This document shows positions 25,149-29,435 of a DNA stretch of 32,708 bases, piece after piece. The stretch covers positions 1-32,708 of the forward strand of contig CALZIJ010000051.1 of NCBI GenBank assembly GCA_945787655.1. The letters are read 5' to 3'. Each line of letters begins with the position of its first letter. Position 1 is the first letter of the stretch. The notes under the pieces were generated by a model. The model saw only the letters and a list, made by a program, of their open reading frames with translations. It did not search any database and was not told where the DNA came from. The DNA is from Nitrospiria bacterium. Lineage in GTDB: Bacteria > Nitrospirota > Nitrospiria > SBBL01 > JAADHI01. The position numbers and the translations under genes are program-made.

Positions 25149-27242
25149 ATGGCCGATGTTTTGACACAAAACAGGCCAGTCAACCGGGCGGCCAGAAACG
25201 GGGATGCCGTCATGGCCATTGGGGTCATTGGAATTTTACTTTTGATGATTATCCCGACCCCTCCGGTTTTACTTGACCTCTTGCTCGCGTTCAGCATCAG
25301 TTCCGGCCTTGTCATTTTGTTTGTTTCACTGCATACGGTGAAGCCGGTCGAGTTTTCTTCGTTTCCGTCCATTTTGCTAATTTCGACCTTGTTTCGTCTG
25401 TCGCTCAATATTGCCACAACCCGTTCAATTTTAATGAACGGGAATACCGGCGTCGGCGCGGCTGGAAAGGTGATTGAAACCTTCGGCAATTTGATGATTG
25501 GTTCAAATTACGCCGTGGGTTTAGTCATTTTTATAATTTTGGTTGTGATTAATTTTGTGGTGATTACAAAAGGCGCAGGTCGAATCGCGGAGGTTGCCGC
25601 CCGGTTTATGCTGGATGCGATGCCTGGAAAACAGATGAGTATTGACGCGGATTTAAACGCGGGTTTGATCGACGAAAAAGATGCCAAGGATCGGCGGGCC
25701 GAGATTTCAAGGGAAGCGGATTTTTATGGCGCCATGGACGGTGCGAGCAAATTTGTCCGCGGAGACGCCATTGCGGCAATACTGATCATACTGGTGAATA
25801 TCATCGGAGGATTTGTCATCGGCGTGCTGCAACAGGGCATGAATATCACCACCGCGGCACAAAATTATACCCTGTTAAGTATCGGAGACGGCCTGGTGGG
25901 ACAGATTCCGGCCCTGATTATTTCGACTGCGTCGGGCATTGTCGTCACCCGTGCCGCTTCGGAGTCGAATCTGGGGGCGGATATGACCCGCCAGATGTTG
26001 GTCCATCCCAATGCCCTCATGGGTGCGGCTTCGATTATGTTTATATTCGGATTAATTCCGGGCCTGCCTCACTTTGCATTTTTTGCCTTGGCGGGGGGCA
26101 TTGCCTTTGTCGGGTATTCCGCAAAACAGTCAGAAAAAAAGGCACTGCAGGAAGAAATGAAGCATAAGCCGGTGCCGGCCAAAGGGCCAAACAAGGATGA
26201 ATGGATTGTCCCGCTTGATCTGATGGAATTGAACGTGGGTTACGGCCTCATTCCGCTTGTTGATGAAGCGCAGGACGGGGATTTATTAAAGCGTATTACC
26301 GCGATCCGCCGTCAACTTGCCCTCGAATTAGGGTTTGTTGTTCCGCCAATTCATATTCGTGACAATCTTCAAATTAAACCGAATGAATATTCGATTGTTG
26401 TCAAAGGCGTCGAGGTCAGTCGTGGAGAAGTGCTGCCCCGTCATTTTTTGGCCATGAATCCGGCGGGCATTGAAAATCACGGGATTGAGGGCATTCCAAC
26501 CCGGGAACCTTGTTTTGGTTTAAACGCCTTATGGATTACAGAAAAGGAAAAAGAGCATGCGCAGCTGGAAGGGTTCACCGTTGTGGATGTCCCGTCCGTT
26601 ATCGCCACGCACATTACTGAAACCATTCGGGCCCATTCTGCTGAATTACTGGGCAGGCAAGAAGTACAGCATCTTATTGATCAGTTTGGAAAAGATAACC
26701 CGAAGGTCGTGGAAGAACTCATTCCAAACCTGCTTTCTTTGGGGAGTGTGGTAAAGGTCCTCGGAAATCTTTTGAAGGAGCGGGTGCCCATTCGGGATTT
26801 GCGAACCATTCTGGAAACTTTGGCGGACATGGCCCCGGTCACGAAGGACACCGGCCAACTCACGGAATATACCCGCCAAGCCCTGGCCCGATCCATTACA
26901 AAACAGCATGAAGGCCCGGACGGGACCTTATCTGTCATCAGTATTGATCCCCAGTTGGATCAACTGATTGCCCAATCCATCCAAAAGACCGAGCAAGGGT
27001 CGGTGATCACTCTCGATCCCTTGGTGATTCAAAAGGTGATGATGAAAATACGGCAAGGTTCTGAGGAAGTGGCGATGCAAGGGCATCACCCCGTTATTCT
27101 CTGCTCCCCCGCAATCCGGTTTTATTTGCGGCAAATGGCAGAGCGTTTTATTCCGAATCTGGTGGTGTTGTCCGCCAATGAGATTGCTTCCAATGCAAAA
27201 ATGCAAACCGTCAATACAGTGAGATTAACGGATGAAGATTAA
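25149..27242 (+). CDS. flhA: FlhA, flagellar export-gate ring protein
   Basis: FlhA is the nonameric export-ring protein, converting proton motive force and docking substrates. 697 residues: N-terminal hydrophobic domain with about eight membrane helices, the FHIPEP-family cytoplasmic loop near 141-205 (GRIAEVAARFMLDAMPGKQ, then ISREADFYGAMDGASKFVRGD), and a four-part cytoplasmic domain from about 350. It overlaps the flhF start by 11 bases, so the two are probably translationally coupled. Confidence 0.97.
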   Translation: MADVLTQNRPVNRAARNGDAVMAIGVIGILLLMIIPTPPVLLDLLLAFSISSGLVILFVSLHTVKPVEFSSFPSILLISTLFRLSLNIATTRSILMNGNTGVGAAGKVIETFGNLMIGSNYAVGLVIFIILVVINFVVITKGAGRIAEVAARFMLDAMPGKQMSIDADLNAGLIDEKDAKDRRAEISREADFYGAMDGASKFVRGDAIAAILIILVNIIGGFVIGVLQQGMNITTAAQNYTLLSIGDGLVGQIPALIISTASGIVVTRAASESNLGADMTRQMLVHPNALMGAASIMFIFGLIPGLPHFAFFALAGGIAFVGYSAKQSEKKALQEEMKHKPVPAKGPNKDEWIVPLDLMELNVGYGLIPLVDEAQDGDLLKRITAIRRQLALELGFVVPPIHIRDNLQIKPNEYSIVVKGVEVSRGEVLPRHFLAMNPAGIENHGIEGIPTREPCFGLNALWITEKEKEHAQLEGFTVVDVPSVIATHITETIRAHSAELLGRQEVQHLIDQFGKDNPKVVEELIPNLLSLGSVVKVLGNLLKERVPIRDLRTILETLADMAPVTKDTGQLTEYTRQALARSITKQHEGPDGTLSVISIDPQLDQLIAQSIQKTEQGSVITLDPLVIQKVMMKIRQGSEEVAMQGHHPVILCSPAIRFYLRQMAERFIPNLVVLSANEIASNAKMQTVNTVRLTDED

Positions 27243-28515
27243 AACATTCGAAGGCCAGAGCATGGCTGAAGTGTTGAAAAAGATCAAGGCGGATCTCGGA
27301 GAAGAGGCAGTCATCTTGTCTACAAAGGAATTGGAGAAGAAAATATCTTTGCCCGACGGGAGGTTTAGAAAAGTCTCTGTGGTTCAAATGTCGGCGGCAA
27401 TTGATCACGAAGAAATGCATCCTGAAAAAAATCAGTCCGGCACAGAGTCATCGGCTGCGTTTGACGAGACCTTAACACGCGCAATCCAGGGAGACCTTTA
27501 CAAAGAGCTTCAAGAGATCAAGACCTCTTTAAAGACCCTGAAGACAACACCAGTATCTGGCGGCTCAAACTCAAGTGCCGCCTCGGCTCCTGAAGAAAAA
27601 GAGGAGCTCGAAATACAGCAAAAAAAACTGCAAGAAACCTGGCTTGAAATGAAGATTATGCTCAAATCTTTAAATGATCTTAAAAATACCGCTCAAGGCA
27701 AGACCCAGCATCGGGTTTTGATCCGCTTGCACGATCAGTTGATTGAAAGCGGGGTGGATACGGAAACGGCGGAACATCTTGTGCGTGCTGTTACGGAAGA
27801 GCTTCCAAAGGTTGAATTGTGGCGGCCGGACCGTGTTCAAAGTTCTATTCAGAAAATTATCGAAGGGCTGGTTCAGGTATCCGGACCTTTGAATGTTGAC
27901 GAAAATACATGTCCGGATGGGCCCAAGATCGTGGCATTGATTGGTCCAACGGGGGTTGGAAAAACGACCACGATTGCCAAGCTGGGCGTGGATTGGAAAA
28001 AAAGAGAAAAGCCGGTCACGCTTGTTTCCTTGTTTGATCCGCACCAAGTAGATGCTGATCCCCTCATGCATTACGCAGACCATCATGGACTTGCAATGGT
28101 GCGGGTCAGTTCATGGAAAGGTTTGGAGAAATGGGTGACACGGAGGAAAAAAGGGGAACTCGTTTTGGTGGATACTTCGGGAAGAAGCCATTTAAATTCG
28201 AAGGATGTATCTGTTTTAAAGGGCCTGGTCTCTATGGGCATGCCTTTGGAAACCCATTTGGTGCTTTCCGCCAATATAAAAGGCGGAGACCTTTCCGACA
28301 TGATTGATCGTTTTTCAGTGGTGCCGATTGATTCGTTACTGTTTACCAAAATGGATGAAACGAAGACCTATGGCCCCTTGTTGTCCGCCATGGGCAGGAA
28401 GCGCAAACCGATTTCTTACCTGACGACAGGGCGGCGGGTCCCCGAAGATATCGAAGTCGCGACTCCAAAAAGACTGACAGATTTGATGTTAAAAAGCGCC
28501 TTGGAAAGGGTTTGA
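27232..28515 (+). CDS. flhF: FlhF, SRP-type GTPase for flagellar placement, with degenerate G2 motif
   Basis: FlhF is an SRP-family GTPase that marks the site and number of polar flagella. 427 residues: N-terminal MKIKTFEGQSMAEVLKKIK typical of FlhF, a linker, the N-domain from about 150, and the G domain with P-loop GPTGVGKTT at 238-246, G3 DTSGR at 314-318 and G4 TKMD at 372-375. The G2 motif, normally DTYRIxA or DTFRIxA, reads DPHQVDA at 269-275: the aspartate stays but the threonine and arginine are lost. The usual GQ near VPEDI is GR. GTP binding seems possible; hydrolysis or dimer activation may be altered. Overlaps flhA. Confidence 0.93.
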   Translation: MKIKTFEGQSMAEVLKKIKADLGEEAVILSTKELEKKISLPDGRFRKVSVVQMSAAIDHEEMHPEKNQSGTESSAAFDETLTRAIQGDLYKELQEIKTSLKTLKTTPVSGGSNSSAASAPEEKEELEIQQKKLQETWLEMKIMLKSLNDLKNTAQGKTQHRVLIRLHDQLIESGVDTETAEHLVRAVTEELPKVELWRPDRVQSSIQKIIEGLVQVSGPLNVDENTCPDGPKIVALIGPTGVGKTTTIAKLGVDWKKREKPVTLVSLFDPHQVDADPLMHYADHHGLAMVRVSSWKGLEKWVTRRKKGELVLVDTSGRSHLNSKDVSVLKGLVSMGMPLETHLVLSANIKGGDLSDMIDRFSVVPIDSLLFTKMDETKTYGPLLSAMGRKRKPISYLTTGRRVPEDIEVATPKRLTDLMLKSALERV

Positions 28516-28556
28516 GGAAATCAGCACAGACTAAGTCGAAGAAAGGGTAAGAATAG

Positions 28557-29435
28557 ATGGAAGAAGCCGGAACAATAAACGGAAATGGCAGGAAGGTCAT
28601 TTCCAACCCACCTTCGCAGACTTCACGGATTCCCAAGGTGATTGCAGTGACCAGCGGAAAAGGCGGTGTGGGCAAAACAAACGTCGTTGCAAACCTCGCA
28701 GTGGCCTTGGCCCGACTTGGGAAGTCCGTCGTTATTCTTGATGCGGACCTGGGTTTGGGGAATGTGGACGTCCTTTTCGGGATTATTCCGAAATATACGA
28801 TTGAACATGTTTTGTTGGGTGAGAAAAAACTTTCCGAAGTCATCATTGAAGGTCCGCTGGGTATTAAAATTTTGCCCACCAGTTCCGGGTCTGAAGATTT
28901 AACCCACTTAACCGCTGAACAAAAAATGGTGTTTCTTTCGGAGTTGGATCAGTTAGAAAAAAACATAGATATTTTTTTAATTGATACCGCTGCGGGCATT
29001 TCATCAAACGTGCTTTATTTTAATACAGTGGCTCAGGATATTCTTGTGGTGGCGACAGCAGATCCCACATCGGTCACGGATGCCTACGCCATCATGAAAA
29101 TTCTGTCAAAGCGGCATGGGGAAAAACGCTTCAAGCTGCTTGTGAATATGTCCCGTGGTATTCGGGAATCAAAAGATGTTTTTAGAAAATTAACGCTTGT
29201 TTCAGATCAGTTTCTGGATATTGCCATTGAGTATTGCGGTTTTATTCCGCAGGACGATTATTTAAGGATGGCTGTTTTGGAACAGCGTTCTGTCGTGGAC
29301 GTTTACCCGACTGCAAAATCAAGTGAGTGTTTTATCGGATTGGCAAAGGAAATATTGAAATGGCCTTCCAGTGAGTTCCCGAAGGGAAATGTTCAATTTC
29401 TTTGGAGACGGTTGCTTGGAGATAAGATTGAATAG
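28557..29435 (+). CDS. flhG: FlhG (FleN/YlxH), MinD-type ATPase limiting flagellar number
   Basis: FlhG antagonises FlhF and sets flagellar number. 292 residues: deviant Walker A GKGGVGKT at 34-41, VVILDADLGLGNVDVLFG, the switch II region IDTAAGIS, and the remaining MinD-like fold. The protein begins with a polar tail and shows no DQAxxLR activator helix, which in FlhG proteins normally lies before the P-loop and stimulates FlhF. A stop codon (TAG) directly precedes the ATG, so no longer in-frame start is possible. It is next to flhF, which itself has a changed G2 motif. Confidence 0.95.
   Translation: MEEAGTINGNGRKVISNPPSQTSRIPKVIAVTSGKGGVGKTNVVANLAVALARLGKSVVILDADLGLGNVDVLFGIIPKYTIEHVLLGEKKLSEVIIEGPLGIKILPTSSGSEDLTHLTAEQKMVFLSELDQLEKNIDIFLIDTAAGISSNVLYFNTVAQDILVVATADPTSVTDAYAIMKILSKRHGEKRFKLLVNMSRGIRESKDVFRKLTLVSDQFLDIAIEYCGFIPQDDYLRMAVLEQRSVVDVYPTAKSSECFIGLAKEILKWPSSEFPKGNVQFLWRRLLGDKIE

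Follow-up and report, generated by a model that had tools for sequence, protein, structure and literature searches.

A decayed G2 loop in FlhF beside an FlhG without its activator helix in a family of Nitrospiria, and recurrences of the double loss in other lineages

The FlhF encoded in the window (the whole stretch of DNA that was analysed, 32,708 nucleotides of contig CALZIJ010000051.1 from a Nitrospiria bacterium) lacks the catalytic Asp, Arg and Gln of the G2 loop (DTxRxxAxxQ), and the neighbouring FlhG lacks DQAxxLR, the helix whose Gln is co-catalytic and is supplied to the FlhF dimer (PMC12826062). Both losses are specific to their motifs and their association recurs across phyla. The arrangement is a variant of a known switch that extends throughout the lineage and has been replicated elsewhere; a literature search found no description of a co-loss of the G2 loop and the FlhG helix. 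When the motif losses are taken together with the literature on the co-catalytic Gln and on the Vibrio FlhF mutant R334A, the FlhF of this family is probably a GTP-binding scaffold with a defective G2 and without FlhG-stimulated hydrolysis, with FlhG acting through its ATPase core only.

The window is an ordinary flagellar supercluster, whose minus strand carries fliI, fliG, fliF, sigma-54 activators, and kinases and whose plus strand carries fliK, flgD, flgE, fliL, fliM, fliN, fliP, fliR, flhB, flhA, flhF, and flhG, alongside a FliA-like sigma factor, CheD, STAS, and SpoIIE-domain genes (the names of flhB, flhA, and the FliA-like factor rest on sequence and position). By the order of the reading frames, flhF (27232..28515, plus strand, 427 aa) lies between flhA, the end of which its start overlaps, and flhG (28557..29435, plus strand, 292 aa). 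No second FlhF was found in the genome, where the two other SRP GTPases were read as Ffh and FtsY, nor a second FlhG, the other matches being distant ParA/MinD-type ATPases. The assignment of FlhF as an SRP-type GTPase orthologue draws on the locus, on PF00448 (SRP54-type GTPase domain; 98.2 bits, cut-off 22.7) and on a Foldseek structure search in which the top matches (8r9r, 2px3, and 2px0; TM to target, 0.82–0.87) were all FlhF; the score against the NCBIfam equivalog TIGR03499 was below the curated cut-off (147.6 bits compared to 174.15), though this was still the best-matching family. An AlphaFold2 model has the NG fold (mean pLDDT, 83.7), preceded by a linker and by a predicted FliG-interacting N-terminal region (MKIKxFEG..EVLKxIKxELGxxAVILSTRE) that aligns with relatives. 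FliM begins with its usual motif, SQDEVEALL. A different mode of polar marking, which the sequence-only reading had offered as one outcome, found no support, as nothing unusual was seen in the cluster, in FlhF's N-terminal region, in the core of FlhG, or in the FliM motif; a repurposing of FlhF to another marking mode or flagellation pattern is very improbable against a gene content that runs conventionally from fliF and fliG through fliM, fliN, fliP, fliR, flhB, flhA, flhF, and flhG to the FliA-like gene.

The nucleotide motifs of an active SRP-type GTPase are present in the window's FlhF on both sides of G2, including the G1/P-loop GPTGVGKTTT (27943..27972, plus strand; residues 238–247), G3 DTSGR (28171..28185, plus strand; residues 314–318), and G4 TKMDET (28345..28362, plus strand; residues 372–377). 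The family was sampled in eight species from three genera, all eight of which possess an flhF with an open reading frame. Among these eight, G1 reads GPTGVGKT[TS] (exceptions, one GKTE and one GLTGVGKT), G3 reads DT[ASVP]GR (with one DTVGC), G4 reads FTKxDET, and G5 and the N-terminal region are likewise kept; judged from these motifs, GTP binding is probably retained across the family.

At the G2 site (28033..28065, plus strand; residues 268–278) the window's FlhF reads FDPHQVDADPL, where relatives have DTYRIGAVEQL. That DPHQVDA is the G2 site was borne out by its usual distance from the P-loop, by its alignment to DTYR in 38 FlhFs, and by the AlphaFold2 model, in which it lies between a strand (262–267) and a helix (277–285). 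In a gap-free alignment the positions of the G2 Asp, Arg, and Gln are occupied by F268, H271, and P277; a gapped alignment places D269 at the Asp, one position away from where it falls without the gap. Of the earlier proposal that Thr and Arg were lost and Asp kept, the loss of Arg stands and the retention of Asp holds only if the alignment is gapped, while Thr is not a marker of G2, as helix-bearing FlhFs show T, S, N, V, I, or D at that position and the near-invariant residue is the Arg. The structure 8r9r is from S. putrefaciens, and its DHYR shows only that the Thr is dispensable. The one-residue ambiguity over the Asp is what an artefact (a misplaced G2 site, a frameshift, or an assembly error) would have in its favor, but such an origin is hardly conceivable given that eight species agree, the flanks are conserved, the model puts the loop at G2, and the loop has the same length in the window and in relatives (TLVSLFDPHQVDADPL versus TLATLDTYRIGAVEQL).

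Within the family the G2 loop is hypervariable, occurring as FDPHQVDADPL, IETQTQNIDPL, DVSESGGADVL, DETESGRGDIL, DETARHTGETL, NDAGEMDGGRL, and DPFESGDEARL. Mean pairwise identity among the eight species was 0.91 for G1, 0.24 for G2, 0.73 for G3, and 0.94 for G4 (the last over LLFTKMDET), compared to 1.00, 0.87, 0.92, and 0.73, respectively, among 13 helix-bearing relatives. When the whole G domain was compared in 11-residue stretches, decay in the family relative to such relatives was greatest at G2, far more than chance would give. Twelve columns fixed in the helix-bearing controls were lost in the family, six of them in G2 and one just before it, and a column comparison of the eight members identified no family-specific conserved residue within the loop. 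For the closest pair examined, dN was 0.76 in G2 and 0.15 in the remaining G domain, with a dN/dS of ~0.05 outside G2 (dS is saturated and the ratios are rough). FlhF is under purifying selection outside G2. This bears on the possibility that FlhF has become dispensable and is turning into a pseudogene, for which it can be said that within the genus FlhF identity is mostly 0.62–0.75 compared to 0.84–0.92 for FlhG, the two being about equal in helix-bearing clades. All eight frames are open, conservation extends to G1, G4, and the N-terminal region, and dN/dS in the G domain outside G2 is low, all of which makes that course very unlikely.

The FlhG of the window possesses the MinD-like ATPase core of the FlhG type and is closest to P. 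aeruginosa FleN (5j1j; E = 6.7e-77, residues 27–287); within the genus this core is 85–89% identical to that of the window. DQAxxLR does not occur anywhere in its 292 aa. An in-frame TAG stop directly 5′ of the ATG (28554..28556, plus strand) had been reported and was confirmed, and together with a TAA at 28548 rules out a longer start. That FlhG lacks the motif was thus upheld, though not as a plain absence, because the start MEEAGTIN (28557..28580, plus strand) resembles a worn MDQAxTLR in register. Congeners begin with MEQAGIIN, MGQTGTVN (two species), and MERTGIIN compared to MDQAxTLR in relatives, and starts of this type are a probable relic of the enhancer helix.

The family shares both losses, and its DQAxxLR-bearing relatives from the same order and class all have an intact G2. 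A survey began with 80 loci found via FlhG across phyla, which gave the same pattern; four lineages were then enlarged because of their defective G2, and the final set consisted of 198 FlhF–FlhG neighbour pairs after removal of near-duplicates, with an intact G2 scored as Arg plus Gln/His. G2 was intact in 88 of 89 helix-bearing pairs (strict motif, 72 of 73; near motif, 16 of 16), whereas the 109 helix-less pairs were divided between intact (n = 56) and defective (n = 53). A likelihood test of correlated evolution on all 198 pairs favored a helix-dependent rate of G2 loss over independence (LR = 24.9, p = 6e-7), with the rate of loss estimated at 0.76 when the helix is absent and ~0 when it is present; the gene tree was built from the FlhG core, its N-terminus left out, and helix states were defined by regular expression. 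In the untargeted subset of 137 pairs gathered before the enlargement, intact and defective G2 loops numbered 72 and 0 with the helix and 46 and 19 without it (Fisher p = 1.4e-7), and the correlated-evolution test gave LR = 11.7 (p = 6e-4) with seven parsimony changes of G2 state. A conservative independent-pairs sign test limited to strongly supported branches did not reach significance (median p = 0.25) and had little power, with ~3 informative pairs, of which nearly all pointed the expected way. The sole helix-bearing exception was L307 (DSFKVGAGFHL), from a group whose helix-less members show a freely varying G2. The suggestion that both partners of one interface had changed together therefore held and proved more general, with a defective G2 occurring almost only beside a helix-less FlhG, across phyla. 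A stricter rule, by which G2 would be lost whenever the helix is, was ruled out, as many helix-less Nitrospirota retain DTYR; G2 is intact despite helix loss in most sampled Nitrospirota outside the class, in most Nitrospira, and in Pseudomonas. With so many helix-less lineages keeping an intact G2, loss of the helix permits G2 decay and does not force it. We infer that the helix was lost before G2, though in the window's family a single stem carries the two losses, which counts against resolving the order there. An apparent intermediate occurs in another genus of the family (L010, genome G006), with G2 DSDRIGGVEKL and an FlhG without the helix.

Two other groups, a further Nitrospiraceae genus and a class from a second phylum, show decay of the kind found in the window, independently to judge from the sequences. 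In the former (L040) G2 reads DRESSGGADPL, and the nearest FlhG relatives keep both DTYRVAAVEHL and the helix; the G3 of L040 is also altered, DQPGH compared to DTAGR. In the latter, the class of L181 (L283–L310), two members (L309 and L310) have the helix and DTYR, helix-less members have DIHRGGQGFHL, DPVRSSHEMSL, AAEGSLKGVEL, or DQSQSAQEMSL, and L287 is helix-less yet keeps DTHRIGGVEQL. By spanning helix with DTYR, helix with DSFK (L307), and helix-less members with a variable G2, this class is a useful one for ordering the two losses. The recurrence of the double loss in unrelated bacteria suggests that evolution has taken this textbook flagellar switch apart on more than one occasion, and on balance we favor, by a modest degree of confidence, a repeated dismantling that has left several phyla with FlhFs that bind GTP without hydrolysing it and would still direct flagellar assembly.

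Two further lineages share with the window a helix-less FlhG and the loss of the G2 Gln, but have a new conserved G2 consensus where the window's family is hypervariable. The Desulfovibrionales-type loci (L193–L219, L221, and L222) typically read NADCLRGNGRLxLRHWAELS, which looks like remodelling rather than decay, and their FlhGs start only a few residues ahead of the ATPase core. In the Zetaproteobacteria-type loci (L224–L252) G2 is mostly D[TV]xR[MI]GG, in most cases D[TV][ED]RMGG, with the Arg mostly kept and the Gln lost in all sampled members. Loops of these two kinds (DCLRGNGRLxL and D[TV][ED]RMGG) make re-use possible in other lineages, and Pseudomonas FlhF functions with a motif-less FlhG (PMC12713375); both points favor a rebuilt loop, with which FlhF would still hydrolyse GTP through other residues, intrinsically or with another activator. 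For the window's family this is unlikely, as its G2 is unconserved (identity, 0.24) and has no residue of its own in common. A loss of stimulated hydrolysis, the first outcome put forward by the sequence-only reading, is the best-supported interpretation of the window's FlhF.

The canonical FlhF–FlhG pairs of B. subtilis (2px0/2px3) and S. putrefaciens (8r9r) share with the window the flhA-flhF-flhG order, the N-terminal region, the NG fold, G1, G3, G4, and G5, and the FlhG ATPase core, but differ in possessing the G2 Asp/Arg/Gln and DQAxxLR. In Pseudomonas, FlhG/FleN, the closest solved relative of the window's FlhG, also lacks DQAxxLR (PMC12713375; likewise in L140, L142, L150, L158, and L176), but FlhF retains the G2 Arg and Gln (DS[YF]RIGAQEQ[LI]). 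In V. alginolyticus, FlhF is active as a GTPase only when FlhG is present, and the R334A variant of FlhF, altered at the Arg of DTYR (by counting from G299, K305, T306, and K311 given in the same paper), has no activity even with FlhG, yet its localisation and the flagella are normal (PMC6092412). In P. aeruginosa, R251G, stated to be the corresponding residue, is GDP-trapped and the flagellum is paralysed (PMC6855561), so that losing the G2 Arg is not harmless everywhere. Both mutants lack the catalytic Arg, as does the window, but are single substitutions, whereas in the window the whole loop has been replaced naturally and together with the loss of the activator helix.

In the scaffold interpretation, FlhF would keep the guanine-nucleotide pocket and the predicted FliG-binding N-terminal region while having lost the SRP-type catalytic loop, and would bind GTP and serve as a scaffold for the earliest parts of the flagellum with no hydrolysis stimulated by FlhG, similar to the viable Vibrio R334A. 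FlhG, without the helix carrying the co-catalytic Gln, would act with its ATPase core only, in C-ring delivery and transcription. Selection on the G2 Arg and Gln would be lifted once the helix is lost, after which the loop may drift or be remodelled. The need for a GTPase cycle in FlhF is contested, the Arg mutants being normal in Vibrio alginolyticus and paralysed in Pseudomonas aeruginosa, and natural lineages that have lost the G2 Arg and the helix more than once are evolution's own experiment on the question. The prediction is that in such lineages the G2 Arg and Gln had been selected mainly for FlhG-stimulated hydrolysis, and that flagella can be placed with GTP binding alone.

Two additional FlhF variants were observed among the sampled loci. 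In three Thermodesulfovibrionia-type loci (L096, L112, and L127) G2 reads DTYKIGAAEQI, with Arg replaced by Lys in an otherwise intact motif beside a helix-less FlhG. In a genome from the same order as the window (G008), the flhF frame (L023:199-2265) extends over 689 codons, far beyond the usual length, and is possibly a fusion or an extended N-terminus.
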